Part shown: piece after piece, positions 5,763 through 55,640 of the stretch | Layout of the letters: every line of letters starts with the position of its first letter | How positions within the stretch are numbered: the stretch's first letter is position 1 | Source: Diacronema lutheri | Lineage: Eukaryota > Haptophyta > Pavlovophyceae > Pavlovales > Pavlovaceae | Assembly (NCBI GenBank): GCA_019448385.1 | Contig: JAGTXO010000008.1 | Location: forward strand, 930,001-994,000 | Length of the DNA stretch: 64,000 bases | Reading direction: 5' to 3' | Program-made: the position numbers and the translations under genes | Notes under the pieces: generated by a model | What the model saw: the letters and a program-made list of their open reading frames with translations, nothing else | Database searches by the model: none | Told to the model about the DNA's origin: nothing

Positions 5763-5778
5763 AAGCGTCGTTAGTATA
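5763..5778 (-). repeat. TATACTAACGACGCTT dispersed motif, reverse orientation
   Basis: The reverse complement of this 16-mer is identical to 29905-29920. It sits in the 120-bp gap between the glycosyltransferase stop and the TTL start. Confidence 0.6.
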
Positions 5779-5828
5779 TCGACTCAGAACAGTCTACGCC
5801 CCGCCGTTCTCCGAGTTCAAAATTGTCA

Positions 5829-6876: not shown

Positions 6877-7299
6877 CGGCGCGGTCCGGGCTGGTCCGGC
6901 CAGTGTAAGGCTGAGAGTACGACCCGGGTCGTACAATCAAGGGTTAAAAGCCAGCCAATGAGCGCTCGAGGGGTCGGGGCGAGGCTTATGACGAGCCTAG
7001 GACCGAGACACCCTCCTGACCGGCCGATTTGGAGTAGAATTCGGGGTCGAGCGGGCGCGGCGGACGGAGGGCCCGAGCCGGGCCGACGGAGGGTCCGACC
7101 CCGGAATGCGGGCGACCGGAAGGGCTTGGGTGATTTACGCCTAGTAGAATAGAATGGCGGATTCCGGGGGGGCTCGCAACTGGCATCGCGCAAGCTGAGG
7201 CCCCCTGACTGACCGGACCGCGCCGAGTGCGCGTGCACCCCGTGGAGGGCGCGGCCAGTCGGACACTCTTCGCGACTGAGCTCGCCGCGGCATACCGTG
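6877..7299 (+). repeat. 423-bp left-end repeat, copy 1
   Basis: It is nearly identical and equal in length to 51816-52238. It begins CGGCGCGGTCCGGGCTGGTC, contains a perfect 18-bp palindrome GTACGACCCGGGTCGTAC (6917-6934) and ends CATACCGTG. Both copies start immediately after an AT-rich hexamer. Confidence 0.9.
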
Positions 7300-8559
7300 C
7301 GCTGCGCCGGCGCGCTACTTGCCGTTGGCCGAGCTGCGGGTGTTGCGCACCGCCGTGTTGCGCAGCCAGCGGCTGGATGCGCCGGTGGCCGGAACCTTGG
7401 CGCGCTTTGGCTAAGCGACCTCGGCCTGCACAGACTCGAACGCGTGCGTAAACTCGAGGCGTTGCAGGTGGCGAGCACGTGAGTTCGCGTAGGAGGTCTT
7501 GTACTCGGTGGCCTGACTGTCGACCGACGAGAGCTTGGGCGAGTTCGGCGGCACGTTGGCTCACTTGGGCTCGGTGCGCGGCTCTGCCGGCGCGGGCGCG
7601 TGCGCGGGCGCGGGCGCGACGCTTCGGACTCGCTGCCCGGCTCTGCCTGTGCGGGCGCGATGCACTCGGACTCGATGCCCGGCTCTGCCTTCGTGGGCGC
7701 GGTCGCGGGCACGGGCGCGCCCTCGACCCCGTCGCGGTTGAAGACATCGAACTCGACGCACACGCCGTGGTCCTTGAAGTCGGTGGCCTCGCTGTCGTTC
7801 GCGTAAGCCTCGGGCGAACTCGCAACGAGCGACGACATCTCGGCGTGGAGCCAGCACATCTCATGCTGCACCGCGTGTTCAGGTTCTCGAGCGCTCCGTT
7901 GAAAGAGTCACTCTCACCGAGGCGCTCGCTGCACCACACCAGATAGCCATCGAGCTTGTGAGCGTGCTCGTGCGCCCGTGCGAGGTCCTTGGAGAGCGCG
8001 TCGGCGCGCGCGCACATGCCGTCGCATGACTTGGCCGGTGTCATGCTGTGCTTCCAAGGCCTGGTGCTCGGCGTTGAGCGTGTCGTGATCCACGCGAACG
8101 AGCTGCAACCAGCTGCAGCAGCCGCGCGACGCCGCTGTCGCCGACGATGCGCTGGAGCATGTGGCCCATGAGGTGTGCGCGGCACGTGGCGAGCGCCACA
8201 TTTTTGCGCAGCAGCGCGAGGATCCGGGCGCCGCGGACGAGCCGGCCCATGCACTTGAGCGCGTAGATTCGGCCGCACATGCACGCGCCGACGACCGAGT
8301 CGGCGGGCCCGCCGTCGAGCCAAAAGTTGGCCTCGGCCGCATCGCGGCGGCGGGCGACGCGCTGAAGGATGCGCACGCGGTAGTGCCGGTCGACGAGCAG
8401 CTCGTCGCCGAAGATCTCGTCGGGCAGCAGCTCGGAGACGTTCTGGGGGTACATGCTGTGCGAGCGTGCACGCGACGAGATCTCGTCGGGCGTGCCGTCC
8501 GTTCGTTCAGAGCAGAGCGCGTCGGACCGGCAGACAGACGATGCAGCGCGCGAAGGCAC
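7300..8559 (-). pseudogene. Degenerate hypothetical ORF with possible coiled coil
   Basis: I do not recognise this protein. The best stretch (8559 down to about 8120, minus strand) reads SELLPDEIFGDELLVDRHYR, then FWLDGGPADSVVGACMCGRI and LMGHMLQRIVGD. Protein-like sequence then moves through other frames (VRVDHDTLNAEHQALEAQHD, LARAHEHAHKLDGYLVWCSE), suggesting a helical or coiled-coil C-terminal part broken by frameshifts or unmodelled introns. It lies just inside the left end of the insertion element and could be a remnant of element coding capacity, but nothing identifies it as a transposase. Confidence 0.3.
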
Positions 8560-8883
8560 CTGCGGCGCGCGGCGTGGCCTCGCGTGCCGTCACGAAGCCG
8601 CCTGCGCGCACTGCGGAGGCGGCGAGCGCGACGAGGGCGGGCGCGGACGAGGTGCTGAGCGGCGTCACGTACGCGCCCTCGCTCGCCGAGCTCGACGCCG
8701 CGGCGCTGACGATGCGCGCGGCGTACCACACCGACCGCCCCTGAGACGATGCGCGGCGCCCGCGGAGGACTGGTCCGTTGGCGCGCAAACCGTGGGCGAA
8801 AGGGCGCGAAGCCAACGGCCGTCCGCGCACGTTCAAACGCGCGCATCCGGGTGGCATCCTCCCACCTTCGGCGCCGCTTTCTA

Positions 8884-9172
8884 AAAGGGTGTAGGGTGTA
8901 GGGTGTAGGATGCAAAACAAGCCCTCCCTACATTTGGGCCCGACGTCATTCCTTCATCGAAGCCGTGACGTTACTCACATACGAGTACTTTTACTTAGTG
9001 TAGGATGTATCTATTCTCTAAGTATTTACATGGTGTAGGGTGTAGGATAAGTACGGTTATGAAAGTCCCATGGGGGGAGAAGGAATGACGCCGTGACGAA
9101 AGAAGGAATGACGTCGGGCCCAAATGTGGGGAGGGCTTGTTTTGCATCCTACACCCTACACCCTACACCCTT
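8884..9172 (+). mobile_element. MITE copy 1 with ~80-bp TIRs and TGTAGGG repeats
   Basis: The left end AAAAGGGTGTAGGGTGTAGG plus GATGCAAAACAAGCCCTCCC is mirrored at the right end, giving ~80-bp terminal inverted repeats. The interior is AT-rich and non-coding, with a further GTGTAGGGTGTAGG block. No TSD could be assigned. Confidence 0.75.
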
Positions 9173-9436
9173 TTGGAAAGCGGCGGCGCCTCGGAGCATG
9201 GCGGCTCGACAGCATGGCGCCTCGACAGCATGGCGTCGTCCAGCGTGGCGTCCAGGATGGCGACTGCGCCCGGGCCGTGACGCCGCGACGTCGTTCGGCT
9301 GCGTCACGGAGGAGCGCCATCCGTGCGCCACGGAGGAGCGGCAGGACCACGACGCGGCGTGACGCTGGACGACGCCATGCTGTATAGGCGCCATGCTGTC
9401 GAGCCGCCATGCTCTGAGGCGCCGCCGCTTTTCAAA

Positions 9437-9727
9437 AGGGTGTAGGGTGTAGGGTGTAGGATGCAAAACAAGCCCTCCCCACATCTGGGCCCGACGTCAT
9501 TCCTTCTTTCGTCACAGCGTCATTCCTTCACTCCCTGTAGGACTTTCGTAACCGTACTTATCCTACACCCTACACTATGCAAATACTTAGAGAATAGATA
9601 CATCCTACACTAAGTAAAAGTACTCGTATGTGAGTAACGTCACGGCTTCGAAGAAGGAATGACGTCGGGCCCAAATGTGGGGAGGGCTTGTTTTGCATCC
9701 TACACCCTACACCCTACACCCTTTTAG
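9437..9727 (-). mobile_element. MITE copy 2, inverted relative to copy 1
   Basis: The reverse complement aligns with 8884-9172 over the full length with scattered differences, including the distinctive interior (ACATACGAGTACTTTTACTT). Same TIRs and TGTAGGG blocks. Confidence 0.75.
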
Positions 9728-9835
9728 AAAGCGGCGGCGCCTCAGAGCATGGCGCCCGCCCGCTCGAGCCGGACCTCCGCGCAGCCGGACTCGCCCCGCC
9801 CCGGGCTGCTCTGGCTGGGCGACGTCGTGCGCGCC

Positions 9836-10414
9836 TCAGAACGCCGCGCTCGCCACGCGCACGTAGCCCTCGTCCGGGTCCGGCTCGGGCGCCGCGTCGC
9901 GCACCGAGCGCGACGCGGCCTCGACGCCCGGCGTTTCGGCACGCGAGGCGACGGATGCCTCGTCCGGCCGGCCCCACGGCAGCTGCAGCTCGAGCTGGCG
10001 CTGGATGATGCGCGGCGTCGCCACGCGCCCGTGCTGCACCTCGCGACGTCGCGCGCGCACGTAGAGCACGATCGCCACCGAGCCGCTGAGGCCCATCATC
10101 GCGCCGAGCAGCACCGAGATTGTGGTCTCATTGTCTGCTTGGGCGCGAACGGAAAACGCGCGAAGGGTGGCGACGAAGATCGTTGGGTTGGGTTGGGCCA
10201 CCGGCTCCCGAGGATTGCTTGTGGCGCTCGACTGACCGTTGGCCCAGCTTTTTTTTTTCTCGAACCTACTGTGGAGCCGCCTGCAGCGTGATCTCCCGCG
10301 CACAACGACCATGGCCGCCATCGACCTGCGCGCCTTCGACGCGGCGCTCGTCAACTGCGAGATCGTGAGCACGCGGCCGGTCAAGCCGAGCGAGCAGGCG
10401 CGCACGGTCGACAA
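9836..10414 (-). CDS. Hypothetical single-pass membrane protein exon
   Basis: This minus-strand ORF of up to 192 aa is unrecognised. It has one convincing transmembrane helix (TISVLLGAMMGLSGSVAIVL) followed by a stop-transfer basic patch (RARRR) and an acidic tail ending DEGYVRVASAAF, like the last exon of a type I membrane protein. Its first ~60 codons overlap the helicase start on the other strand and may not be coding, so the true exon start is uncertain. It could be a captured host-gene fragment inside the insertion. Confidence 0.35.
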   Translation of the reverse strand: MSTVRACSLGLTGRVLTISQLTSAASKARRSMAAMVVVRGRSRCRRLHSRFEKKKSWANGQSSATSNPREPVAQPNPTIFVATLRAFSVRAQADNETTISVLLGAMMGLSGSVAIVLYVRARRREVQHGRVATPRIIQRQLELQLPWGRPDEASVASRAETPGVEAASRSVRDAAPEPDPDEGYVRVASAAF

Positions 10415-12700
10415 GCTGAGCTACGGGCCGTCGCGCCGCGCGCTCGCCTTCGTCACGCCGCCCTGCGTCGTCGACTGGCCCGAGCTCACGGGCGACGGCA
10501 ACTTTGGCACCATGTACGGGCCGACGGACGTCGACAAGGCGGCGTACACGGCCGGCGTGACCGACAAGGAGCTGCCGATTGAAGGCGCGCCGCTCGCGCA
10601 GATGGACGCCTACTTTGGCGCCCTGCGCGCCATCGACGATCAGCGCGTCGAGACGGTGCACGCGCGCCAGAAGGAGCTGCTCAACACGCGCGGCCTCTCG
10701 AAGGAGGAGGTGCGCGGCAAGCTCTCGCCCGCCGTCAAGCCCAAGTACGAGGACGACACGCTCGCGCACACGCGGCTGAACATGTCGACGCGCACGTTCA
10801 CGTGGGCGGGCTCCGAGCGCGTCGTGCCGCTCGTCGACGCGCGGCGCGAACCGGTCGACGAGATCCGGCACGAGGACGTCTGCGCCATCGCCACGCAGCT
10901 CGACTGCGTCTACACGGGGCTCACGGGCTCGATGTTTGGCACCAAGTGGAACGTGTGCGGGGTCATGCTCCTGAAGCGCGCCGAGCAGCGGCCGCAGCCC
11001 GGCTCGGACGCCTTCGCCTCGTACGGCGTGCCCGCCTGGGCCGACACGTTCGACTCCACGGGGCTGTACGTGCCCGACGAGCGCGAGCGCGCGGCGGCGC
11101 TCGCGGCGGTGGCCGGTCTGCGCACGGCGCGCGCGCCGGCCGGGCCGGGCGGGCGCGAGCTCGCGCGCGCGCAGGGCTACCATCGCGCCGAGCGGGCTGC
11201 GAGCGCGGCGGCGGCGCGCGCGGCGATGGCCGAGGGCGGCCAGCAGTGCGCGCTCCACGGCGCGGTCGTCAAATCGGCGCTGCGCGGCGTGGGCAACCGG
11301 CTGCATCTTTGCGACGCGCCGGGCGGCACGGGCAAGACGTTTGTCGAGCGCGCCATCATCGCCGCCGTGCGCGCGGATGGGCACGCGGTCGTCGTGGGCG
11401 CGTCCTCGGGCGTCGCCGCCACGCTGCTGCCCGACGGCCGCACCTTCCACTCGACCTTCAAGGTGCCCGGCGGTGCCGACTCAGACGGGCAAGCCGTTCA
11501 ATGGCGTGCCGCGCTCCGAGCGCGGGCGCTCCCTGGCCGCCGCGGCGGCTGGTCGTGTGGGACGAGGCGCCGATGCAGACGCGGTGCCACCTCGACTCGC
11601 CTGATCGGTGTTGGCGCGACGTGACGGGCGTCGACGAGCGCTTTGGCGGCGAGACGTTGCTGCTCGCCGGCGACTTTCGCCAGTTCTTGCTGGTGGTGCG
11701 GCGCGGCTCGCGCGCGCAGATCGTGCGCTCCTGCCTCAAGTACTCGGCGCCGTGGCAGCACGATCGGCAGCACGCCTTGGTCGAGAACTTTCGCGCCTCG
11801 AGCGCGGCGCGCGACACGGGCGACGCGCTCGGCGCGGGCGAGTGGGAGAAGCTGCTGCGCAGCCCCGGCGACGGCGCCTTTCCCGCGGCGGTGCCGGCTG
11901 CCGGGGCCATGCCCGGCGCATTCCCGCTCGATGCCGTGCAGCTGCCCGAGGCCGTCGGCGGCGTCCCCATCCGCGAGGGCTCGGCCTTCCCGACGGAGCT
12001 CGTGACGACTTTGTCCACGGCGCGGCGTGTCGGACCGACGACGGCTCGCTGTGCGACCGCGCGGTGCTCTGCGCCAAGCACACGGACGTGGCGCGGATCA
12101 ACGAGCTGGTGATCGGCCGCTTCCCGGGCGCGGCGGCGAGGTGCGAGTCGGCGGACGAGCTGGCGCGACGACGGGGCGGGCAAGCAGATTGCGCTGGCGT
12201 CGGTCGAATTCCTCGACTCGCTCGAGCACGCGCAGATGCCGCACCGCGTCCTCGACCTGAAGCCCGGGATGGTGGTGATGCTGCTGCGCAACCTCTCGCC
12301 CGGCGAGGGGCTGTGCAGCGGCACGCGGCTGATCGTGCGCGGCGTGCGCGCCGGCGGCCGGCCGCTCGAGTGCGCACGCCCCGGCGCGGCCGCCGGGCGC
12401 GACAGCACCGTGCTCATCGCGCGTGTCGACCACCACTCGCCCGACGACGGCACGTTCGCGTTTGCATGGATGCGCCGCCAGTTCCCGGTGCGGCCGGCGT
12501 TTGCGAGGACGATCAGCAAGGCGCGGGGGCAGACGCTCGGGTGCGCGGGCGTGTGTGGCTCGCCGAGCCGTGCTTCATGCACGGCCAGCTCCACATGGCC
12601 GCTTCGCGCGTCGGGCACGCGTCGCGCATCCGCTTTGCGCTCGGCCCGGGCCTCGTGACACGCAACGTCGTCTTCACGGAGGTGCTCCGCGCGGTCAGCG
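10311..12700 (+). pseudogene. PIF1-like helicase behind a virus-like N-terminal domain, frameshifted
   Basis: The ORF from ATG 10311 has an N-terminal ~230-residue domain (LTGDGNFGTMYGP, NMSTRTFTWAGS, TGLTGSMFGTKWNVCGVMLL) that resembles a family of unknown function in large algal viruses (DUF5871-like, from memory). It is followed by a PIF1/Helitron-type superfamily 1 helicase: Walker A GGTGKT, Walker B VVWDEAPM, GDFRQFL, and C-terminal RQFPVRPAFARTISKARGQT and HGQLHMAASRV. The helicase needs frame changes near 11545, 12000, 12160 and 12540, so as written it is broken. No Rep nuclease domain (HUH) is seen, arguing against a complete Helitron. Downstream (12700-13340) the sequence continues as alanine/proline/arginine-rich low complexity with a PASKRQRR-like basic patch. 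Confidence 0.65.
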
Positions 12701-13352
12701 GTGGCGAGGCTGCGGCGGCGGCGGGCGCGGCGGGCGCCGTGCGGACGGCGCGGACGGCGCCGGCGGTGGGCGGCGCGCTGGCGGCGGGCGCGCCGCCGGC
12801 TGCGGGCGTGGCGGGCACGCCTCCGCCGGCGCGACGCCCGCCGCGCCGCTCGCGGCCGACGCGGAGCCGGCGGGTGCTGGCCAGCGCCGCGCGCCGCGCG
12901 GACCGACCCGCGTACCTGCGCGCCCTTCCGGGGCGCGCAGGGCGGCGCCGACGCGGCCGGCGCGCAAAGGCCTCGAGGTGGCGCACTGCCCGCCGCCGCG
13001 TGGGTCGCCGCCGCGCGCGTGCCGTCGGCGCTGCCGCTGGCCGGCGTCGCGCTCGTGCCGCTGCCGCAACCGCAGCCGCCGCCGTCGCCGCCGCCTGCCG
13101 GCAAGCTGGGCAAGCGCGCAGCGGCGGCGACGGCGGTGCGCGGCCCGGCGAGCAAGCGGCAGCGGCGCGCCGCCGAGCCGGGGACGGGCTCCGCGGGCGA
13201 CGCGGCTCGCCCGCCACTCGCACCACTCGCGCGCCGGGCGCGCACAACGCGCGGTGGTCCGCTGCGTGGCCGGACGAAGACGCGGTTTTGGCTGCGGGGC
13301 GGCTCCGACAGGGAGGCCGTTACATCGACATGGATTTTGTACGCAATCCATA

Positions 13353-13670
13353 CCCCCCCCCCCCCCCCCCCCCCATCCCATATGGGGGTATGTTCTCCCT
13401 TCGCTGCGCTGGCGTCAGGGAAGCGTCGCAACGATGGCCGCGCGTGACGATGCGACGCGACGATCATCACCGTCGCGGCGTCGCGTGACGGTGACGAGGG
13501 TCGCGAAGATCGTCGCGACGATGAGCCAACACACTGGCAACCATGTCGCCAGTAGCCGCGAGCTCGTCGCCGTAGGCGCCGCCTTCCCGGGGAGACGCCT
13601 ACGGCGACGCCCCCCCCCCCCCCCCCCCCCCGGGCGCGCGCGCGCGCGCGCCCATTCGCCGACGCGCGCG
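13353..13670 (+). repeat. C22 tracts, hairpin and CG-dinucleotide repeat
   Basis: Two 22-nt poly-C runs (13353-13374 and 13610-13631) flank a perfect 13-bp-stem hairpin, GTCGCCGTAGGCG...CGCCTACGGCGAC (about 13568-13608). A (CG)n stretch follows. No coding signal is seen between 13380 and 13800. Confidence 0.85.
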
Positions 13671-13803
13671 CGCGCGCTCGTTCGCGCAGGTCCAGCCGAA
13701 GCGCGCGAATCCCGCTCGCTGCGCCGTCTCTGCTTCCTTCATACGTCCAGCTTCTTCGTGCGCCTACGCCTGCGCGCACCTCGGCGGCGAGGAGAAGGTC
13801 CAC

Positions 13804-16234
13804 GTGCACTTCCACCTCACGCCGTGCGGCAAATTCGCGACAACCGAGCGCGCGGGCTGGCCCGAGCGCATCATCGCGCCCATGGAGAAGCGCTTCTTCT
13901 ACAAGGAGAACCAGCGTCGGAAGCGCTTCCAGCAGAAAGACGAGACCGCGCGGGACGAGATCGCCTACCCCTTCGGCCCCGACGTGCAGATGGACTTGCC
14001 GGTCGTCGGCTTCGGCGGCGGCGGCGCCGCCACCTCCGCCGCCGACGCGCCGATACCTGCGCCGCCGAGGCGAGTCGTCGAGCAGTCGAGTCTCACCAAC
14101 GCGCAGCGCGTGCTCCCCGTGCAGAAGAGGGTCGCTGCGTTGCAGCGGCGACAAGCGCACTTCGGCGGAAGGGTAGGCGGTCAAGTGGCGTCGCAGCCCG
14201 CGCAGCTGCCGGAGCAGCACTCGCAGTCGACCGGAGACGGGAGCGCCGCATGTACTGCCGAGCACCACGCCGCCACGCGCGCGCCGCTTCCGCGCGTGAC
14301 GCTCGCGCAGCCGGCTGCGCAGTCAGCCTCGCACGCGGCGAGCGGCTGCGGCTCGGCAATGCCGGCGCTCTCCCCGCCTGCGCTCGAATTGCCGCCACCC
14401 GCGCGCGCCGCAGCAACCGTGCCGGCGGGCTGCGCGCCGGCAGCGGACGCGGGTGGGACGTTCGCGGGCGTGCCGCCTGCCGCCTCTGCGGGCATGCCGC
14501 CCGCGCCGGCGAGCGCGCAGCCGGCGCTCGCTCCACCGAGGCGGCTCGCCGCCTGGCCGCTGACGGCACCGCCCACTGCCGTCCCTCGCGCTGCCGACTC
14601 GACGCGCGAGCTTGACGCCAAGCGTCTGCTCTTCTCGCACGACGGAGAGCGGCAGCTGGCGAGCCTGGTGCTCGATACGTTCCGCCTCAAAGTCGGCGGC
14701 AAATTGCCATTCGTCGAGCTTCGCGGCTCTGCTGGCGTGCGGCGCGGAGAGCTTGTCCTCGAGCAGAGCGGCGGCGAACTGATTGGGGAGGCTGTGCGTG
14801 CCATGCTGGCGCAGACTATGCCCGAGTGCCCATACTACACGCCGCCGGCGCCCGCCGTCATGGCGCTGCTGCGCAAGCCGCCGGGCGGGTGGACAGCAGA
14901 GACGCGAGCTGAGGCGCGCGATGCGTTCGCCATGCCGCCGCACATGAGGTGCGTCATTGTCGCGCCGCACGTCTACTTCCGTGCCGAATGCGCCGCGGAC
15001 CCGCGCTTCCGCGTCGATGGCGACCCGCAGCTGATCATCTGCCCGTGCCCCAAGTGCATGAGCAACGAGTCGATCTGCCGCACGCCGATGACGGCCGCCC
15101 GCTTTGTCTACGACTTTGGCAGCACGATATGCGTGTTCAGCGAGGTGATCCACTGCAAGGCGTGCGGCGCGCAGGCAGCGCCGAGCTCGCTCCTCGACAA
15201 GCCCGACTACATGCCTCTTGCCGTCCGCCATAAGTACGCCGAGATCATGCTCATGGCCGTCGGCGCCGTCACGATGCGACTCGCACAACACTTTTTCATC
15301 TCGACATGTGCAATGTCGAAGCTTGCAGAGCAGCTGTCGGCGTCGATCCTCCTCAGCCGGCCTCTTGCGGAGGGCGAGTACCTGCGCTTCGTCGAGCAAG
15401 AGCAGCATGCCGAGCGCTCACGGCGCGCGCAGCATCGGCAGACGACGCTCCACGACTTTCTGCCGAGCTCGGTGCCGCTCGTAGTCGGGGCCGACCGCAG
15501 CGAGTGGCCTCCCTTCATGCGCGTCGATGCGCCCAACTCGCCCATCACACCGGACAACATCCGCACAGTTGTTATGCACGTCGGAGGGAGAGCTTCTCGC
15601 CGCGCTCCTCCGGCTACGCGCGCGCTTCGAGCGCATGGGCACGTTGGCGGGCGTCACGGTGTGGTACCCAGACTTGTGCTGCCTTAGGTGCACGCAGGCG
15701 CAGCTGAGCCAGCACGTCCTGGTCGACCTCTTCGACAACGTCACGCGGCGCCCTTTGCTCCACCCCTTCCACGCTTGCAAGCGCACCGGTGACACGCTCC
15801 ACGTCGCCAACCAAGAGTACGCGACCGCCTTCAAGCGGGACCTCGCCGCCGCGCTATTCGAAGCGCAGATGCCGGACGTCGATGCCGTCGCGCAGCACGT
15901 GGCTCTGCAGGCGCGCAGCGACGTGGCAACGGCGAAGGCGTCTGTGCTGTCCAACCTTTGCAAGTACAGAAGGAACGGTGCGGTCCGGATGCCGACTGAG
16001 GCTGCGGCGCAGCTGCACGCGCTCGAGCTCAAGTGGACGATCTTCACGGAGAAGCAGCCCACTTTGTCGCCTGTGCGCCCCTCCAAGGGAAAGGGGTCTG
16101 GCCGTGTTCTCGACACCTTCGAGTCGCTCGCCTCTTTGAGGTCATGCGTCTCGCGCGGCTGCTTGCACGACCCGTTCCCGCCGCCTGCGGTCATGGCAAT
16201 GGACGGCCTCGCGTACGCCTTCAATGAGCTTTAA
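13804..16234 (+). pseudogene. Cysteine-cluster (DUF6729-like) ORF, frameshifted
   Basis: A long ORF (to about 15590) continues after one frame change as the ORF ending at the TAA at 16232-16234. An N-terminal basic region (MEKRFFYKENQRRKRFQQKD) and a ~250-aa Ala/Pro linker precede a conserved-looking core: CPCPKCMSNESIC, VIHCKACGAQ, then a helical block (AVRHKYAEIMLMAVGAVTMR, STCAMSKLAEQL). Two CxxC pairs around a long loop, followed by this helical block, recall the DUF6729 domain found in protist transposase-associated proteins; this is from memory and moderate at best. After the frameshift, GTLAGVTVWYPDLCCLRCTQ and LFDNVTRRPLLHPFHACKRT add more cysteines. No DDE residues can be assigned. 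It lies inside the insertion element, downstream of the helicase. Confidence 0.4.
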
Positions 16235-17400
16235 GTGGCGTCTTTTGCCGATCCTGCGGGTGGCATTGGCGCGGACCACGCCCACTACGAGCCGGTGGGC
16301 TGGAAGTACGAGCCGGACAATCGTGCGGCGCGGCGCGAGTTTGACGAGCTCGTGGAGGCGCGGGCGCACATGAGGCTTGCGGCGTTGCAGGCATCGCCGC
16401 TCTCATCCGAATCGCCGCAGCCGCCCTCGCAGCAGCAGAGCCCGTTCTCGCAGCAGTCGCCGCCGCCCTCGCAGCAGCCGCGCGCCGGCAAGCAGAGCCT
16501 GCACGCAAAAGCCGCGCAGGGCCACCTCTTCCAATCCAGTACCAACGCTGTCGAGCCGCGATATCCGTCGCGAGCGGAGCGCGCGCTTGCGGTGGAATGC
16601 CTGGCGACCGCAATCTACACCTGTGGATCGACGAACGAGGGCGCCGTGTTCAAGGCGGCGCAGGCGCACTACACCTCCGCGTTGTTGCAGCGTTACTCAC
16701 AGCCCGCTGGCGCTGGCGTGCCGCCGGAAATCAGCATCCCGTCGGCCGGTGCCTTCCGCAGCATCTCGCGCGCGGCCTCGGAGCAGCATGCTGCTGCGTC
16801 CATCGACGCGGCCGTGACGGGCAGGTCATCACGCGAAGCGGCGCGGGCAGGTGCGGGCACACGCCGCTGCGAGCACTCCTGCCACACGCTGCTCACCAGC
16901 GCGCCCCCTCGCCTTGTGCTCCCGCGTTTGCCGTGTGCAGAATCAGAGGAGGGCGCGCCGGCCGCGGCCGGGCCCGCGTCCCTACTCGCGCTCGAGTTTC
17001 AGCGCCAGCACCTGACGCCTGTCCTCGCGCGCTCTGTGCGTCCTCCCACAGCAGGTACGCTCGAACGCCGTCGCTTCTCCAGTTCACGCGCGCCTTTTGC
17101 GCCTCGAGCGCGAGGGGGCCTTGCCCTGACCGCGCCGCCCCAATCCCCTCCCGTCGCGAAACGAGTGCAGGCTGCGCACACGCATGTGCCTTTGCGCAGC
17201 CGCCCTACTACGCTTCCGCGCCCCGGCTCTTTCCAGGAGCCATGCACGGCGTCTCCGCGCTGCCTACCGCTGCGGTGCCAGCTGCAGCAGCCCGCGCTCC
17301 CACCGTCAGCGCACGAACCGACGAGCTGCTGCAGCTTGCGAAAGAGGGCGGAGCTGTGCATGTGCGGGGGCTCAATAAGGCAAACACGCGCAAGCTCGCT
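16235..17400 (+). pseudogene. Possible continuation of the cysteine-cluster ORF
   Basis: The same frame as the preceding segment resumes directly after its TAA and runs with plausible protein sequence (HYEPVGWKYEPDNRAARREF, AERALAVECLATAIYTC) and a Gln/Pro-rich stretch (16417-16500). This suggests an in-frame nonsense change rather than a new gene. After about 16850 the composition becomes unstructured. Function unknown. Confidence 0.25.
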
Positions 17401-17504
17401 CGCTCGACCAGATCAAGGACGGTGGTGTCGCGGCGCTTGGCAGCGCGCGGCCGAGCGATGAGGAGCTCGGTGCGTCTCGACCGGAGAAGCGCGCGCGCAA
17501 GGAA

Positions 17505-17506
<2 letters not shown>

Positions 17507-17537
<31 letters not shown>

Positions 17538-17554
17538 AGGGGGGGGGGGGGGGG
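17507..17554 (+). repeat. Poly-G tract (G30-AA-G16)
   Basis: An uninterrupted G run of 30, two A, then 16 G. Such tracts are rare in single-copy DNA and prone to assembly error. Confidence 0.95.
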
Positions 17555-19062
17555 TGGCCCGCGGAATTCGTAAAGGCCGGGCGCTCGCCTGCTATGACGA
17601 CGTAAGCGGCCGGCGTGTGGTCGGTGCCGGGCGCTCAAATCGGAATCGGCGGCCGTGGAGGCGCACATCGACGCACTCGACGCGGAAGTTGCAGCACACG
17701 CGATGCGACCGCGCACATCGTGGGCCGCCGCGCCGGCGGGGCGCGCGCGAGGGCTCGCCATCGCGCTCGGCGATAGCAAGCCTTCGCGTGGCGAGTCAGC
17801 CGATAGCAAGCCCTCGCGTGGGAGGGGTGGATGCCGAAGGCGTCAACGCCGAGCCCTGCGATGCGGTTCAGCGGACGACGCCGGGCTACGGCGTCGCGAA
17901 AGCTGCTCTTGTCCGTCGCGCCTGGCGAGGACCTACCCCAACCCACTCGCCGTGCGAGTGGCGGGAGGGTGGCGTGCCAGCGACGCTGCCACGCCTGTGA
18001 CGCACCGGGGCGCAAAGAGGGTCGAGCACACGTGCGCGAGCGGGTCAAAGTTCGCGTTCCAGCACGTTGCCACGTCAGCCGGCGGCAACCGTGCCGACTT
18101 CTCATGCCGTACAGCTGCCTGCCGTAATTTGACGAGAGCATGAGCTTGCCGATGTGCGCGCGCACCATGTGGATCCGCTTGCGACCCTCGGCGTTGAGGT
18201 GCGCGTTCCTCGTCTGCTATCTCGCCGTCAATCTGCGCCTGCGTTCAGGAGCTGATGTTTCTGGGCGGGAAAGGCCACGAGGATGGCGGCCGCCGGCGCC
18301 GGAGGCCAAGACGACGCGGGGCATGAAGTGCGGGCGTACGCGCTGCGACACCGTGGCACGCTTGAGGGCGTGCCGCCTCCTCAACGTCTACACACCGCCG
18401 AGCAGGGAGGACGGTGGTGGGGTCGGGATGGCGCTGGCCGATCCGGCCACGTTCCGTGTAGTTCCGCCGAGGTCCCGAGCTTGCACAGCGTCGCGTGCGG
18501 CCTCAGCCCGAAGCATTGCCAGCTCAGCACGGCGACCATCCAGGCCATGCACCACCCTCGGACGGGTGAGATGAAGCTCATCAAGCTGGGCGTCTCGCTC
18601 CTCACCGGCAGGCACACCAATGGGCGCGTCGCAAAGCACATACACCGGTGCCCACGAGTTCGGCCTGCGTCTGGGCCCGGACATTGCCCCGTCCAAACTC
18701 CTGGGCCCAGACGCAATGTTCGGCCTGCGTCTGGGCCCGGACATTGCCCCGTCCGGCTAACGTACGACTCGGGCGCGGCCGCATACTCGTACGAGTGTGC
18801 GTCCACGCCCGAGTCGGTAGGCAGCACAGAGACCATGCCCGGGCGCTCGGCGCGCGTGCGCGGTCGACCGCATCGTGAGTATCACCGCGCGGACGCGCTT
18901 TCGGCAAGCGGGGCAGCGGCACGCTCCACTGTTCCGACTCGACGCACACTCGAACCGGCCTCGTACATTCGCCGGACGCACACTCAAACCGTCCGGACTT
19001 GCGGCGCGCTGTGTGTTCGACCCGCCGCCGCCGCCATCCACCCAGTTCGGCGGCGCTCGACC
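17555..19062. other. Region upstream of Fanzor; no convincing gene
   Basis: Open frames exist on both strands but none has recognisable domains. Visible features are two near-repeats of CGATAGCAAGCC(T/C)TCGCGTG (about 17770-17820) and a 36-bp direct repeat, 18659-18694 and 18719-18754 (CGGCCTGCGTCTGGGCCCGG...), spaced exactly 60 bp. It may hold Fanzor 5' exons or promoter. Confidence 0.4.
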
Positions 19063-22000
19063 ATGACGGCGCGGCTCGTGCCCATCACGCTCGCCATCGC
19101 CGCCTGCTTTGGCGCGGCGCGCGGCACAGGGCTGCTCGACACCGCGCCGCTCGCCCTCTCCGCGTCTTCGTCTTCGGCCTCGCCTCTCGCCGACGCCGTC
19201 TCAGTCGTCGCGCTGCGGCCCGCCGACATGTTCGCCGGCGGCACCGTCGTTCCGAGCCTGCGCAACGTCGGCGGCATCGTGGCGCGCTCCGCATCCTCCG
19301 CTCTGCTCGCCGACGCCAAGGACGGCCGCACGTACGCGCCGCCCGACGGCGGCGCGCGCCGCACGGCGCAGGCGTCGCGGCCGCCGCCGTCGCCGTTCGC
19401 GTCGATCGTGCACGAGCGCCGACGCAGCCGGCGGGAGCGCCGGCAGGAGGCGCTCGCAGCGCGGCGGTGGCCGAGGCGGCTCTGCCGCCGCCGGCTCTGC
19501 ACGAGCGCGCGCGTGCCGCTGCGCGCGCGAGCGGCGCGCGGCGCGCGCGCCGCTGCGCTCGCGCTGTGCTGCGCAGGGCTGGCGTGCTCAGCCGCGTGCA
19601 TGGCCGGCCGCTGCGCGACCGTCGCGCTCCCGCCCATCGCCGCCGAGCTCGCCGTGCTTGCCAAGCTGAGCGCGCGCGCCGCGTGCGAGTGGGCGCTCGC
19701 TGGAGGCGTTTTACGCGACGGCGCGATCGCGGCTGCCAGCGCGTTGGCGCAGGTGTGGGCGACGACGCGGCTGCACACCGCCGCGCTCGCGATGCTCGGC
19801 GGCGGCCGCCGCCGCCGCCACGAGCCTGCGCGCGGCGCGCGCGCTACAGCGCTCGCGCTGTGCCGCGCAGGGCTGGCGTGCTCAAGCGCGTGCATGGCCG
19901 GCCGCTGCGCGGCCGTCGCGCTCCCGCCCATCGCCGCCGGGCTCGCCGTGCTTGCCAAGCTGAGCGCGCGCGCCGCGTGCGAGTGGGCGCTCGCTGGAGG
20001 CGTTTCACGCGACGGCGCGATCGCGGCTGCCAGCGCGTTGGCGCAGGTGTGGGCGACGACGCGGCTGCACACCGCCGCCCTCGCGATGCTCGGCGGCGGC
20101 CGCCGCCGCCACGAGCCTGCGCGCGGCGCGGACGCTTGCGCGCGAGCGAGCGACGAGGCGTCCGCGCCCGCGCCCGAGCCGTGCGCGCAGTACGGCGCGT
20201 GCGAGCCTCGACACGCCGCCGGCGGACGCGGGTCGCGCTGCGATTCGCGCTCGCGCGTGCCGCCGCGCGAGCAACCGCCGCGCGTTTGGCCGCCGTTCCT
20301 CCTCTCCGAGCCGCGATGCGACTTTCGGCGCTACCTCTACCAAGGCGGGATCGAGCGGCTGGAGCATTACGTCGGCGCGCACAGGACCGACATGGTGATG
20401 GCCCACCTCGCCGAGCAGGACAAGTTGTACGCCAAGAACTGCGACGAGATGGGCCAGCCACGCATGCGCACTGCCGTGCAGCTCGCGGCGGCGGCAGCTG
20501 CGCGCGCTTCCGACGCTGCGCGCAGCGCCGCCGCCGCGCTGCCCGCGCCCGCCGCGCCGCTGCCGGCCGCCGCGCCGCCTGCCGCCGAGCCCGCGCCGCA
20601 CGCCGAGGCCGAAGTGTGTGGCGAGTGCGAGCCGGGCGCGCCACGAGCGTGCGCCGATGGCGGCGAGGCGGAGGCGCGCGCCGGCGCAGCTCGCGCCGAC
20701 CGCTCGCCGCTGCCGCCCGCCGCTGCTGCCGACGCACGCGCAACGGCGGGCGCGCGTGCGCCGCGCATGCCGTCGCGCCGCGCGTGCGGTGCGCGCTGCG
20801 CGCACGGCTGCGCTGCCACGGGCGGCGATGAGCGCGCGAGCCGTGCAGCCACCGGTGCGACCAGCTGCGCTGACGCCTCCTCTGACGCCTCCTCCTCGGG
20901 CGAATCCCTCTACGCGGGCTCGGACTCTGACTCCGACAGCGGCGACGGCGGTGGCGGGCGCGGCGGCGGGCGCGGCGGCGGGCGTGGCGGGCGCGGCGGG
21001 CGTGGCGGACGCGGCGGACGCGGCGGACGCGGCGGACGCGGCGGACGCGGCGGACGCGGCGGACGCGGCGCCGGTGGCGGCGGTGGCGGCGCCGGCGGCG
21101 GCGGTGGCGGGCGTGGCGGTGGCGGGCCACCGCGGAAGCGGCGGCGGCACGTGCGCGCCACGCAGCGGACGAACGCGCTCGACGACGCGGACCGCGCCCA
21201 GTCCATCAAGCTGCAGCTGAAGACCATCGTGCGCCCCGCCTACCTACAGCACCTGCAGGACTTTGCGGTCAAATTTGACCGCATCGCCGCGCTCGCGATC
21301 GAGGTCGGCGTCGACTTTGCCGAGCGCGCGCTGCGCTCCGGCGAGGAGCTGCCCGCCGTGTGGACGGAGTCCTACTGGAGGGCGGTCATCTGGGCCGTGA
21401 CGCGGAGGGCAAACGCGGCAGGCGCGACTCCGCAGCACGGCCAGCTCGGCGCTGACCTCGCGGACTTTGCCGGCGCGCACCACGCCGTGCTCGCGGCGGG
21501 CGGGCCGATCGAGGTCGCGTACATGGGCAAGCCGCTTGGCTTCCTCGCCGCGCAGCTCACGACCAACTACGTGAACCACGTGCGCACGTCGGGCCTGTAC
21601 GGCGCGCTCGAGGCGCTCGTCAAGGTGCACCTCGCGAGGGCCACGCGCGCCGAGCAGGTTGCTGCGGCTGGGACCGCCGCGCCGCCGGCCGGCAACGGCG
21701 CGCTGTCCGCACAGACGATGCGGCACGCGCGCCGCCGCTGCACGCGGCTCATCTGGCGCGGCCAGATCGACGACGCGTCGCTGCCCGCGGCGCTGCGCGA
21801 CGACGACGACCTGCTGCGCGAAGTGCTGCCCGCTTGGGAGCTCTTTGACGCCGACTACGATGGCGACCACAACATGGGTTGGTACCTCAATCGCCCGCCG
21901 GGCGAGAGCAACAACGTGGGCGACGGGTACAGGGCGATGCTCCGCGTGCTCGACGCCGCGCGGCAGGCCAACGGCGACAAGCCGATCGGCCCGAAGCGCC

Positions 22001-23154
22001 TTCCGGGCAAGAAGAGCCTCATCGTCGGCCACTTCCTCCGCATCGACGCCGAATTCCTCCAGGCTTGGCTGCGCTGCACCGAGGACTTTGTGCGGGAGTT
22101 CGGCAGAGGCTGCGACGCGGGGCGGCCGATCACCGCAGGCAACAACCGCACGCGCATCTTCAACGTGGTGTTCAAGATGGACGTGTCGCGCGCGCTCCGG
22201 CGCGCCAACCGCGCGGGTGGCCACGTCTCGTCGATCCAGACGGACGGCAAGGCCGCGTCCGTCCTGCGCACGTGCGACGCGCCGCTCGCGAGTCGCCTTG
22301 GCGGGCGCGACGAGCTCGGGCGCACCGACTACCTCGACCGCGAGACGCTGCGCCGCTACACGCCCGAGCAGATCGTCGTGTTCGACCCGGGCAAGAACAA
22401 GCTCTTCTTCGCGTGGGCGTGCGCGCTGTTCGGCGCGACGCGTCCGCGCACGCTCAGCTGGTCGGCGGCGCGGCACCGGCGGCTCGCCGGCGAGCGCCGC
22501 GCGACGGAGCGGATGCTGCGGCGCAAGAAGATGACGGTCGTGCGCGGCGACCCGCAGCGCCGCTCGATCGCGCAGCTCGAGGAGGCGCTCGCGGGCCGCG
22601 ACGGCCACGGCGCGCCGCTGCTCAACGAGGACGAGCGCCGCGAGGCGCGCGAGCTGCTGCGAGGCGCGTACGGGCACGAGTGGTTCCGCACGCGCCGCAT
22701 GCACGCCTACTCCAACCACCAGCGCGCGCACAGCAGGATGGTCGACGCGTTCGCGGCGACGTACGGCGGGCCGGGCGAGGTCGTGATCGCGGTCGGCGAC
22801 TGGAGTCTGCAGCTGCACTACCCCAAGTTTGGCAAGTGGCACGAGCGCGGCAAGATGCCGTCGCAGACGATGGGCATCGTCGACGCCTTCCGCGCGCGCG
22901 GCTACACGATCGGCTTCATCGACGAGAGCTACACGTCGCAGGACTGCAGCAAGTGCGACGGCAAGAGCTGCTGCGACTTCTTCACCAAGACGCGCCGGCA
23001 GGTCCGCGTGCGCAAGCACGACCCGTCGAGCCCGATGACCAACCGCGTCGTCAAGACGCTCGTGCGCTGCGCGTGGTGCCGAACCATCTTTGACCGCGAC
23101 TTCAACGCCGCGCGCAACATCTACAAGAAGGCGCTCGAGCTGCGCGGGCCGTGA
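19063..23154 (+). CDS. Fanzor: eukaryotic TnpB-like RNA-guided nuclease
   Basis: A 1363-aa ORF from ATG 19063; the frame is open upstream to 18283, so the true start is uncertain. The C-terminal ~670 residues (from nt 21140) are the Fanzor core. RuvC-I is VVFDPGKNKLFFAW (D1108). A segment VVIAVGDWS (D1246) sits where TnpB has RuvC-II. Then IDESYTSQDCSKC supplies the relocated glutamate typical of Fanzor (E1288). The zinc ribbon is C1295/C1298 and C1336/C1339, and RuvC-III is FDRDFNAARNIY (D1346). All four zinc cysteines and the acidic residues are intact. The N-terminal ~690 residues are unusual: a hydrophobic leader, a 98-aa tandem duplication, an acidic serine stretch, an RGG tract and a PPRKRRRH nuclear-localisation-like patch. 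It is predicted to cut DNA guided by an RNA made from its 3' flank. Compared with other ORFs in the insertion it is undamaged. Confidence 0.9.
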   Translation: MTARLVPITLAIAACFGAARGTGLLDTAPLALSASSSSASPLADAVSVVALRPADMFAGGTVVPSLRNVGGIVARSASSALLADAKDGRTYAPPDGGARRTAQASRPPPSPFASIVHERRRSRRERRQEALAARRWPRRLCRRRLCTSARVPLRARAARGARAAALALCCAGLACSAACMAGRCATVALPPIAAELAVLAKLSARAACEWALAGGVLRDGAIAAASALAQVWATTRLHTAALAMLGGGRRRRHEPARGARATALALCRAGLACSSACMAGRCAAVALPPIAAGLAVLAKLSARAACEWALAGGVSRDGAIAAASALAQVWATTRLHTAALAMLGGGRRRHEPARGADACARASDEASAPAPEPCAQYGACEPRHAAGGRGSRCDSRSRVPPREQPPRVWPPFLLSEPRCDFRRYLYQGGIERLEHYVGAHRTDMVMAHLAEQDKLYAKNCDEMGQPRMRTAVQLAAAAAARASDAARSAAAALPAPAAPLPAAAPPAAEPAPHAEAEVCGECEPGAPRACADGGEAEARAGAARADRSPLPPAAAADARATAGARAPRMPSRRACGARCAHGCAATGGDERASRAATGATSCADASSDASSSGESLYAGSDSDSDSGDGGGGRGGGRGGGRGGRGGRGGRGGRGGRGGRGGRGGRGGRGAGGGGGGAGGGGGGRGGGGPPRKRRRHVRATQRTNALDDADRAQSIKLQLKTIVRPAYLQHLQDFAVKFDRIAALAIEVGVDFAERALRSGEELPAVWTESYWRAVIWAVTRRANAAGATPQHGQLGADLADFAGAHHAVLAAGGPIEVAYMGKPLGFLAAQLTTNYVNHVRTSGLYGALEALVKVHLARATRAEQVAAAGTAAPPAGNGALSAQTMRHARRRCTRLIWRGQIDDASLPAALRDDDDLLREVLPAWELFDADYDGDHNMGWYLNRPPGESNNVGDGYRAMLRVLDAARQANGDKPIGPKRLPGKKSLIVGHFLRIDAEFLQAWLRCTEDFVREFGRGCDAGRPITAGNNRTRIFNVVFKMDVSRALRRANRAGGHVSSIQTDGKAASVLRTCDAPLASRLGGRDELGRTDYLDRETLRRYTPEQIVVFDPGKNKLFFAWACALFGATRPRTLSWSAARHRRLAGERRATERMLRRKKMTVVRGDPQRRSIAQLEEALAGRDGHGAPLLNEDERREARELLRGAYGHEWFRTRRMHAYSNHQRAHSRMVDAFAATYGGPGEVVIAVGDWSLQLHYPKFGKWHERGKMPSQTMGIVDAFRARGYTIGFIDESYTSQDCSKCDGKSCCDFFTKTRRQVRVRKHDPSSPMTNRVVKTLVRCAWCRTIFDRDFNAARNIYKKALELRGP
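19535..20120 (+). repeat. 294-bp tandem duplication inside Fanzor N-terminal extension
   Basis: Two adjacent copies encode near-identical 98-aa units (ALALC(C/R)AGLACS, RAACEWALAGGV, ALAQVWATTRLHTAALAMLG). GCTCGCGCTG at 19557 recurs at 19851. Few substitutions indicate recent duplication. Confidence 0.9.
20945..21125 (+). repeat. RGG/glycine-rich coding tract in Fanzor
   Basis: Repeats of GGACGCGGC encode RGG triplets (GRGGRGGRGG...) and then glycine runs, directly before the basic PPRKRRRH. RGG boxes commonly bind RNA. Confidence 0.9.
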
Positions 23155-23800
23155 GCGACGGGGCTGCCGCCGGACACGAGCGCGCGCGCGCGCGCACCGC
23201 GCGCTCGTGTCCGGCGGCGCAGCCCCCTCGCCGCTCGCTCGCGCCCGAGCTGACGCGCGCGGCCGCGCGCGTGGCGAGCTCCTCCGCTCGCCACGCACCG
23301 CGGTTGCCGACGCGCGCTCGCGCAAGCACCAGCACCACGCCGCAAGGCGCACAGACCTGCACGCTCCGTACGGCGGCGCTGCTGTCGGAGGCAAGTTGCT
23401 TGCCCCCAGCAGCAGGCCGTCGGGCCGATCCGCCCCGTGCGTGTGCACGGGGCGGTCGGGCACTTGGGTTACCGCGTCCGCGGATCGCGCGCGCACAGGC
23501 GCGCGCGGCTGCGTTCGCGCACAGGCCGCTACTAGGTGTGCGGTCCCCTCTGCTCGGAGTTTGCGCCGATGGCACAGGCCGCCGGCGTCACGCAAACGAG
23601 GTCACATCGTCTGCCGCAGTTTGGGCTCGCCCATTTTGGGCGAGCCCAGCTGTGGGCCCCCGGCCGCGCTGGCCGGGGGCGCGTTGCTTTCTGGACGCGG
23701 CGGCCCCAGAGAGCGCGCCCCTGCCCCTGCGGTCGGCGCGCGTGCGCGCGCCGACCGCAGGGGCCAGGGTTGCGATCATGTATGGGGCGCACAGGCGCCC
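23155..23800 (+). ncRNA. Candidate Fanzor guide-RNA (omegaRNA) scaffold: hairpin array to element right end
   Basis: There is no ORF of interest here, but many perfect or near-perfect hairpins lie between the Fanzor stop and the element end. 23160-23224: ~27-bp stem with a 2-nt bulge. 23267-23294: 10-bp stem. 23430-23454: 11-bp stem with a GTGT loop. A GCGCGC-ACAG-GCGCGC hairpin lies near 23490-23510. 23623-23647: 10-bp stem with an ATTTT loop. 23656-23680: 10-bp stem. 23723-23764: perfect 20-bp stem with a 2-nt loop. 23785-23800: 6-bp stem with an ACAG loop, ending exactly at TATATA. In TnpB and Fanzor systems the guide RNA derives from the 3' flank and ends at the transposon right end, with the guide coming from flanking DNA. 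Position and structure fit; transcription and binding are not shown. Confidence 0.55.
23723..23764 (+). other. Perfect 20-bp-stem hairpin, part of the array
   Basis: GCCCCTGCGGTCGGCGCGCG, loop TG, then its exact reverse complement. It is the most stable single element of the array and could alternatively be a transcription-terminating or protein-binding site. Confidence 0.85.
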
Positions 23801-24366
23801 TATATATGCACCGGGAAGGGGTCTGCCGGACATCGTCATCGCGGTACGACCCGGACGCGCTCGACGACACGCTCGCGCACATCACGAACCACTGCGTGCA
23901 GGAGCGCGGCGCCCACTTTTCAAAGCACGAGCCGGGGAACGAGCTCTTCTTCGAAGAGTTTGACCGCGTGCTGCGCGAGAGCGCGCGCATGTCGTTCTCG
24001 GAGAACGTGTGGCCGCAGCTTCGCCGGATCGTCCGGCACGTCGCGGCCGCGGCGCGCGACGCGCTCGCGCCCGCGACGGTCGAGCGAGGCGGCGGCGGCG
24101 GTGTCGGCGGCGGCGGCGGCGGGGCGCTCGGTTGGCAGCTCTTCGGTTTCGACTTCCTGCTCGACGCCGAGCAGCGTGCGCATCTGCTCGAAGTGAACGG
24201 CTCGCCCGCGATTGCCGACGCGCTCCGCGCCAAGATCACGACCGACCTGGCGCGGGCCCTGCTCGCGCGGCTCGGCGGCGTGTCGCAGCCGGCCACGCAC
24301 GCCGACGCCGACGCGCGCGCGCAGGCGGTGGCCGGCGACTTTGTCCTCGTGTACAGCCCGACCTGA
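23801..24366 (+). pseudogene. TTL: Tubulin--tyrosine ligase, 3' part
   Basis: It begins with the second TATATA (23801-23806). The coding frame then resumes at 23807 with HREGVCRTSS and continues with ALDDTLAHITNHCVQ, HEPGNELFFEEF, LFGFDFLLD and LLEVNGSPA to the TGA at 24364-24366. These blocks match the C-terminal ATP-grasp half of TTL in order and spacing, including the NHC motif and the Glu-x-Asn Mg-binding motif (LEVNGSP). A poly-glycine insert (24087-24122) is specific to this copy. It has no start codon or promoter of its own and needs 5829-6876 to be complete. Identical composition on both sides and no further lesion suggest that the interruption is recent. Confidence 0.87.
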
Positions 24367-51809: not shown

Positions 51810-51815
51810 AATATA

Positions 51816-52238
51816 CGGCGCGGTCCGGGCTGGTCCGGCCAGTGTAAGGCTGAGAGTACGACCCGGGTCGTACAATCAAGGGTTTAAAGCCAGCCAATGA
51901 GCGCTCGAAGGGTCGGGCGCGGTTAAGGACGAGCCTAGGACCGAGACCCCCCTCCTGACCGGCCGATTTGAGTAGAATTCGGGGTCGAGCGGGCGCGGCG
52001 GACGGAGGGCCCGAGCCGGGCCGACGGAGGGTCCGACCCCGGAATGCGGGCGACCGGAAGGGCTCGGGTGATTGACGCCCAGTAGAATAGAATGGCGGAT
52101 TCCCGGGGGGGATCGCAACTGGCATCGCGCAAGCTGAGGCCCTCTGACTGACCGGACCGCGCCGAGTGCGCGTGCACCCCGTGGAGGGTGCGGCCAGTCG
52201 GACACCCTTCGCTACGGAGCTAGCCGCGGCATACCGTG
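51816..52238 (+). repeat. 423-bp left-end repeat, copy 2
   Basis: Near-identical to 6877-7299, with the same start CGGCGCGGTCC and end CATACCGTG. It directly follows AATATA (51810-51815) inside the MULE terminal region. Its right part has been replaced by copia sequence, so no matching right end is seen. Confidence 0.9.
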
Positions 52239-55282: not shown

Positions 55283-55554
55283 TGGCGCGAGTTCGAATCT
55301 GGGTGAACGCATGTCTTTGGGATCAGTCCGGCGGGGCGGGACCGGTGCTTTCCCGGGAGATAGGAAAGCATGGCGTCTCACATTCTTAGTGTGGGACGCG
55401 TGGCCGCGCAGGTGACTGGTGCACACAGTACCTGGCGGTGACGAACGTGCCGAGTGCTAGGTAGCTCGGGCGTCTCGGGTGACATGCTATCATGCTGTGC
55501 CCGAGCGGAGAGAGCCAACTCCGTCACAAACTTCCCAGATCGAACTCGGGTTAT
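55283..55554. other. Non-coding stretch between copia copy and palindrome
   Basis: No ORF of interest. It contains GAGTTCGAATCTGGG, which looks like a tRNA T-arm but lacks a flanking cloverleaf. Probably internal or flanking retroelement sequence. Confidence 0.4.
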
Positions 55555-55638: not shown

Positions 55639-55640
55639 AC

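Follow-up and report, generated by a model that had tools for sequence, protein, structure and literature searches.

The hairpin-rich 3' end of a TATATA-targeting Fanzor transposon in Diacronema lutheri and its probable omegaRNA

In a 64-kb stretch of contig 71 of the haptophyte Diacronema lutheri (hereafter the window, 64,000 bp in all), an open reading frame (ORF) for a Fanzor nuclease is followed by 646 bp of hairpin-rich DNA at positions 23155..23800 of the plus strand, which a preliminary description of the sequence had proposed to be the gene of an omegaRNA, the guide RNA of such nucleases. From a hairpin script, RNA folding and comparison of copies throughout the genome (43,492,796 bp, 103 contigs; 73.25% GC in strain NIVA-4/92, PMC8379373), we read this region as the 3'-terminal non-coding part of a multicopy Fanzor transposon that targets TATATA, the last 75-200 nt of which probably encode an omegaRNA. 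At the DNA level the region lies between the stop codon of the nuclease and the right end of the element, adjoining a variable flank, and the preliminary description was right that this is the position of known Fanzor guide RNAs: these likewise arise from the DNA that separates the nuclease stop codon from the element boundary, and extend past the 3' terminus into flanking sequence (PMC10432273).

The ORF itself (18283..23154, plus strand, 1623 aa) has a core at approximately 21160-23151 and an N-terminal part that is of low complexity and internally repeated. Its identification as a Fanzor held up. The Cas12f1-like TNB / zinc-ribbon domain PF07282 matches the end of the ORF with an E value of 5.7e-10 (39.7 bits, cut-off 26.3), and the translation contains VVFDPGKNK (DPG, RuvC-I), FIDESYTSQDCSKC and DRDFNAARN (RD, RuvC-III), with a glutamate six residues before a CxxC zinc finger; the published Fanzor signature consists of DPG, a glutamate six residues ahead of the zinc finger, and RD (PMC10711439, PMC3627910). 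A phmmer search for similarity to a solved Fanzor gave no match at 0.001, and SpuFz1 (8gkh) aligned over the same C-terminal residues at a non-significant E of 0.21. The single-sequence AlphaFold model of the Fanzor reached a pLDDT of 41.8 and was set aside. The protein is probably of the Fanzor1 type, a presumption drawn from its non-IS607 host element and its divergence from TnpB models. Thirteen full-length Fanzor matches were found in the genome, 11 of them without a stop. Of 12 copies compared, 11 have an uninterrupted 664-aa core. The element has a further ORF upstream (13804-15684), for which no homologue was found at E 0.001 among 7998 candidates scored. Within the Fanzor frame, at 19534-20130, there is a 294-bp tandem repeat of two copies that are 95% identical, and BLAST overlaps suggest that the number of repeats may differ in some other copies of the element.

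The insertion that carries this ORF interrupts a tubulin-tyrosine ligase (TTL) gene, the 5' half of which lies at 5823..6870 (plus strand; PF03133, 7.1e-11) and the 3' half at 23801..24366 (plus strand; PF03133 profile from 133-139 to 281). The stretch 5823-6905 matches positions 104-142 of the profile, the match overrunning the insertion point by approximately its final ten residues, and when 6870 is joined to 23801 the TTL frame reads through unbroken. Between the two halves are two elements, A and B, the second of which carries the Fanzor gene, and together they split the TTL gene with a duplication of TATATA (6871..6876 on the left, 23801..23806 on the right). These are the only two occurrences of TATATA in the window, and given that the TTL gene is restored across the junction, TATATA is the target sequence. 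For an empty-site check we looked for an empty TTL paralogue in the genome and found none, the TTL 3' half having no second long match there. At another site, L014, the same 6-bp duplication is present, with GTTAGTATATA at the left and TATATATGAAG at the right.

The right end of the element is exact, as had been claimed. A 25-base end pattern (at most 3 mismatches) was found at 29 places in the genome, and the reversed control at none; the last stem within the element, GGGCGC/GCGCCC, ends at 23800, and the flank is unconstrained from its ninth base. The eight positions past 23800 are conserved among copies as TATATATG or a near variant of it, with little conserved beyond: in 27 distinct right ends, positions 1-8 hold 1.1-2.3 bits of information and positions 9-16 at most 0.25 bits, near background. 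These 27 were drawn from 36 loci, leaving aside eight with no end recognisable at the threshold and one duplicate flank. Outside this count, L045 has the right flank CCATATATG at a looser threshold, and the flanks of L066-L069 are TATATATG, TATATCTG, TATATATG and TAAATATG. The insertion target of the family is thus TATATA(TG). A further motif, AAGCGTCGTTAGTAT, occurs upstream of the TTL gene (5763-5780) and at the L014 and L069 insertion sites; it looks promoter-like, and by its preference for TATATA the element may be directed to promoters.

Part of the target is drawn into a structure at the element end. A terminal 14-bp hairpin (23777..23808, plus strand) is formed by the element arm CATGTATGGGGCGC, the loop ACAG and GCGCCC, and is closed by the target TATATATG; with the target included it folds at -22.7 kcal/mol (z -5.9). 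In 26 of the 27 ends the arm pairs with the flank at all 8 positions or all but one (L028 pairs at 2), a count that reflects one nearly constant target, and the internal arm differs in three ends (L028, L039, L044), which are too few to claim co-variation of arm and flank.

Upstream of this terminal hairpin, the dense perfect stems of the preliminary description were found with the position, number and strength it had given them. Under criteria of a perfect stem of at least 8 bp and a loop of at most 12 nt, the script identified seven non-overlapping hairpins in 23155-23800, with stems of 9-21 bp and a summed stem of 94 bp, while 300 dinucleotide-preserving shuffles yielded 1.0 +- 0.9 hairpins (maximum 4), a summed stem of 8.5 +- 8.0 bp (maximum 35) and no stem longer than 12 bp. 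All are given here on the plus strand. The first and most conserved, stem 1 (23155..23231), has a 21-bp perfect core at 23166-23218 that the fold extends with small interruptions, and corresponds to a stem previously put at about 27 bp; it is followed by two 11-bp hairpins (23269..23296 and 23430..23455), a 9-bp hairpin (23486..23507), a 12-bp hairpin (23622..23648) whose inner two bases differ among copies, a 10-bp hairpin (23656..23680) with one pair that varies among copies, and, as had been claimed, a 20-bp stem with a 2-nt loop (23718..23769; perfect part in the script 23723-23764). By summed stem the region ranks first among 646-bp windows of the 64 kb (step 50), the runner-up at a different place having 60 bp, which includes one 43-bp palindrome. 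A perfect 43-bp palindrome with no loop is located at 55554-55639, and may be biological or an assembly artefact.

When folded as RNA, the region has a minimum free energy of -462.4 kcal/mol and a z score of -13.4 (20 shuffles); an equally long piece of Fanzor coding sequence directly upstream has a z of +1.2. Rfam, at gathering thresholds over the whole window, returned no match. A coding explanation of 23155-23800 was rejected on account of 1- and 2-base insertions and deletions between copies, and because the three plus-strand ORFs of at least 200 aa that cover the hairpin region run past the element end.

What such an end could encode depends on where a guide RNA would start and stop, and here the preliminary description was not supported on two counts. 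It took the whole array for the omegaRNA, which at 646 nt compares with 75, 90 and 150 nt for the Fanzor1 guide RNAs of three species (PMC11423790). It also placed the first guide base at 23801, where eight target-derived bases follow that are common to nearly all copies; for the ascovirus SfAV Fanzor1 the predicted scaffold takes in both the terminal repeats and the target duplication, and the RNA reaches approximately 15 nt past the target duplication (PMC10711439). Given that the duplicated target supplies the closing part of the final hairpin, and that the first free base is 23809, we infer that the guide would start near 23807-23809, not at 23801, and that the scaffold would be formed by the last 75-200 nt. 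The predicted start of the guide segment, 23809..23823 on the plus strand, is based on the variability of the flank, its length being taken by analogy with published Fanzor1.

From this arrangement a mechanism can be proposed. Plus-strand RNA from the last 75-200 nt would serve as the scaffold of the Fanzor omegaRNA, and its final hairpin would form only after insertion, when the CATGTAT arm of the element pairs with the target TATATATG; the flank past TATATATG would then be the guide. Each new insertion would in this way program the nuclease against its own empty site, and cleavage of the empty site would cause the element-bearing copy to be used for repair. The terminal hairpin could double as an end signal at the DNA level. 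The scaffold of IS200/IS605 TnpB stops at the transposon boundary, unlike the one predicted here, and to our knowledge IS200/IS605 elements make no target duplication. A bolder form of the proposal, which we put forward tentatively and regard as rather doubtful, is that the guide RNA is an unusually long, multi-hairpin one for which the target provides the missing part of the last stem, the CATGTAT arm and terminal hairpin pairing with the TATATATG at the site of insertion, so that it would be functional only after correct insertion, and a single palindrome would act both as DNA end and as guide-proximal stem.

Conservation of the region among copies bears on how much of it could be functional. 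Counting that of the window, 20 copies contain 636 or more of the 646 bases, and there are partial copies in addition; the count of 20 is a lower bound, 40 of 51 candidates having been scored. In an alignment of 22 copies with 215 local pairs, 96.5% of cells pair, and both-sided changes occur in 14 of the 215 pairs, against 3.9 in shuffles (0 of 500 reaching 14; the shuffles ignore the kinship of the copies) and 3-6 in slid versions. Without two helices that show switch-like changes, discussed below, both-sided changes remain in 7 of 182 pairs against 1.5 (0 of 500 shuffles; slid 1-3), and in the last third alone they are found in 9 of 64 against 3.3 (0 of 500 shuffles; slid 1-5). One pair of the 10-bp hairpin at 23656-23680 is G-C in 15 copies, G-U in 3, A-U in 3 and unpaired in 1. 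The fold z scores of six older copies range from -4.1 to -10.8, with the window copy extreme at -14.6, and those of six control stretches from -2.9 to +0.4 (10 shuffles each). The 3' region is conserved through the family, with covariation that is modest.

In stem 1, 27 of 31 pairs are invariant in the 22 copies (gaps set aside). A different possibility is that the whole 646 nt, or stem 1 beside the stop codon, is the functional RNA, either an unusually long omegaRNA with a 3' guide or a separate structured RNA or 3' UTR element. Alignment columns 1-108 after the stop look the best conserved, even in a copy of 68% identity, and a decayed relative, L063, retains a recognisable outer part of stem 1. 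Set against this are the known omegaRNA lengths of 75-150 nt and the internal deletions in persisting copies (L027, L050 and L037), although these may be dead copies, and we judge this possibility very improbable. Our own reading of the hairpins upstream of the last part is that they belong to a conserved 3' region of unproven function, in which some palindromes may have been perfected by template switching.

Several observations weigh against an omegaRNA gene in the last part of the region, and we set them out together. The complementary strand of 23155-23800 folds nearly equally (z -11.2), and because palindromes fold on both strands, the strand is not given by structure alone. The full 646 nt exceeds the known omegaRNA lengths, although the last part alone could fit. 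As to covariation, further pair types are not above shuffles (203, 348 and 88 of 500 reach them for the whole alignment, without the two helices, and in the last third), related copies can exceed shuffles without any structure, and both-sided changes can stem from template switches. The covariation term of RNAalifold is unfavourable at +3.6, with 10 of 213 predicted pairs changing on both sides. Among the 16 least diverged copies, stems contain variable sites as often (32 of 430) as the rest of the region (16 of 216; Fisher p 1.0). The covariance check called for in the preliminary description thus gave a divided result: both-sided changes exceed shuffled and slid controls, but there is no excess of pair types, stems and loops vary alike in the least diverged copies, and some of the changes are switch-like.

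Other Fanzor loci and the protein belong to the same side of the balance. At least 48 stretches of the genome match Fanzor in a protein search (67 of 306 candidates scored). All 11 other loci compared have between 0 and 2 hairpins with stems of 8 bp or longer in the 646 nt that follow the first in-frame stop, which is near chance; the comparison is a weak one, the frames running 3-238 residues past the aligned part and the element ends being mostly uncertain. The fold z scores at three of these loci, -3.6 (L052), -3.2 (L054) and -2.2 (L058), are hardly past the controls. L056, also among the 11, resembles a relic of the window family. The preliminary description had named unrelated, unstructured 3' flanks in related Fanzor copies as the finding that would speak against it, and such a finding was made in part: the array is lacking at 11 of 11 other loci, with the uncertainties of stops and ends just given and one relic-like locus among them. 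The L058/L059 family ends in a 9-bp hairpin followed by TATATACG, which is the same target. The ratio dN/dS of the Fanzor core is 1.04 (66 pairs from 12 copies), giving no sign of selection after insertion; no protein relative of the core was found at E 0.001 among 8000 candidates scored, and none in one scan of viral contigs. A target duplication of at least 5 bp was present at only 1 of the 29 left junctions examined by script (L014). As a separate observation, other Fanzor-like families with long open frames occur at 44% and 29% identity (G000:C86:1017819-1019789, C74:351577-352284 and C82:1476843-1477550), the C74 and C82 loci being the L058/L059 family.

The stems themselves carry traces of another process. 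Of the 20 copies with letters at the three inner pairs of the 20-bp stem, 12 form these pairs and 8 do not, and the three bases of the left arm change together, with no intermediates. The inner bases of the 12-bp hairpin are TC in 8 copies, where they pair, GA in 12, where they do not, and different in the two most diverged. In L037 an internal deletion (locus 1330-1400) is filled by a 16-base exact inverted copy of the locus's own right junction, AGGGTATATATAGGGC. Joint flips of inner pairs and fillers of inverted copy are footprints of template switching, and the 20-bp stem looks as if it had been perfected in this way. The earlier argument that chance would not yield a perfect 20-bp stem was right about chance, the longest stem in shuffles being 12 bp; given the switch-like changes, however, a long perfect stem is no pointer to selection on the RNA.

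These footprints support the proposal that the array is DNA architecture, consisting of GC-rich palindromes of a transposon end of which the terminal one is needed for single-strand transposition and the rest were made or perfected by template switching, the omegaRNA being short (the last hairpin only) or absent. The joint switching in the 20-bp stem, the TC/GA flip and the L037 filler all fit it, as do the equal variability of stems and loops in the least diverged copies and the four loci L066-L069, at which the terminal hairpin and target survive but hardly anything else, if anything at all, can be recognised as element sequence. It accounts less well for the fact that even the most diverged copies keep stem 1 along with several further stems, for the excess of both-sided changes that remains when the two switch-prone helices are removed, and for a location that agrees with published guide-RNA genes. 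We consider it unlikely, though it is an alternative to be taken seriously, and prefer the reading in which the last 75-200 nt encode an omegaRNA.

The host element bears on how this 3' end may have spread. Element B (13610..23800, plus strand), the Fanzor element, lacks its 5' part in the window copy, as comparison with other copies shows: it starts in the window at a C-run at 13610, other copies extend farther 5', and the longest copy was read to about 12 kb. Copies of B have a common 3' end, whereas the distance from it to their 5' starts varies between 31 bp and 12 kb. Fused to B is element A (6877..13609, plus strand), recognised by its left-end pattern and carrying a PIF1 helicase at approximately 10239-12655. 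The pattern, TATATACGGCGCGG..., is present at 231 places in the genome (at most 3 mismatches; control 0), and at no fewer than 4 other loci (C71b, C9, C4b and L020) the two elements adjoin in like orientation, each time lacking different parts. The helicase copies scored (n = 40) are approximately 99% identical, and five of them lie near 25.8 kb from a contig start, positions that suggest a subtelomeric arrangement of element A. A 434-bp left-end fragment of A is found elsewhere in the window, at 51811-52242, and on one contig two copies of the Fanzor element lie approximately 18 kb apart in opposite orientation (C4:1222236 and C4:1240391).

A common 3' end with variously cut 5' ends is as in one-ended, Helitron2-like transposition, and the traits of the Helitron2 type that are present comprise the 3' hairpin, the fixed 3' end with 5'-truncated copies, and the AT target. 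The asymmetric terminal inverted repeat of Helitron2 was sought with one candidate, the 12 bases that precede the hairpin taken in reverse complement, and not found: apart from the candidate itself, two sites in the window match with 2 mismatches, which is at chance level, and the left end is not among them; no Rep domain was seen in the window ORFs scanned, although element A has its PIF1 helicase. With neither an asymmetric terminal repeat nor a Rep domain seen, we liken the element to Helitron2 and do not class it there. A 3' end that stays fixed, 5' truncation to varying extents, a short duplication of the target and an AT target would also be expected if the element had spread by target-primed reverse transcription in the manner of a LINE, not by rolling circle, with the terminal hairpin as the recognition site of a reverse transcriptase. 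No reverse transcriptase domain was detected in the 19 distinct window ORFs scanned, the element ends with neither a 3' A-tail nor a 3' repeat, its fused partner carries the PIF1 helicase, and a comparable pattern has been published for Helitron2 Fanzor1 elements (PMC3627910). LINE-like spread thus seems improbable to us, although most junctions are without duplication, which fits neither model cleanly.

The nearest published counterparts are the non-autonomous Helitron2 Fanzor1 elements CRe-1, CRe-2 and CRe-3 of Chlamydomonas, for which Bao and Jurka described copies shortened to varying degrees at the 5' end but complete at the 3' end, and spoke of one-ended Helitron transposition (PMC3627910). 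They, too, are algal Fanzor elements with 5'-truncated copies, an intact 3' end, a 3' hairpin and an AT-type target, and many truncated copies carry target duplications (PMC3627910), which are found at some truncated copies here as well. They differ in their target, TTTT as opposed to TATATA(TG), and in the length of the duplication, ~7-19 bp as opposed to 6 (PMC3627910); particular to the element described here are the duplication at 1 of 29 left junctions, the long hairpin array, the asymmetric terminal repeat that was not found and the lack of a verified RepHel relative.

SfAV Fanzor1 shares the DPG motif and the rearranged glutamate with the present protein, and differs in that its RNA has been sequenced, it has clear terminal inverted repeats, and the excerpts of its description report no long array, whereas the present system is known from DNA (PMC10711439). 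In SpuFz1 (SPu-1), which is RNA-guided, the omegaRNA lies between the stop codon and the right end, as the candidate does here, but there an 80-nt region, an RNA of 88-90 nt and inverted terminal repeats stand against 646 nt and the weak protein similarity (E 0.21) of the present case (PMC10432273, PMC11423790). With IS200/IS605 TnpB omegaRNA, the present candidate has in common a guide RNA encoded at the 3' end and hairpin ends (PMC10711439). In the open literature, which mostly does not extend to subscription journals, we found no paper on Fanzor in Diacronema, and for Fanzor1 with Emiliania huxleyi only that of Bao and Jurka.

A Fanzor1 element with the target duplication inside the guide scaffold is of a kind already known, and the element described here is a further member of it; if its RNA includes the long array and the target-completed stem, it would be a variant of that kind. 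Its palindromes also carry a warning, that in GC-rich genomes template switching can yield arrays of palindromes and changes that look compensatory. If the RNA is made, D. lutheri would provide a haptophyte Fanzor system with 27 distinct natural right flanks, an exact end and a known target, in which the guide boundary and the target-adjacent motif could be read straight from small-RNA data, and which would serve as a test case for the adaptation of a guide RNA to a transposon by which the target itself is duplicated.
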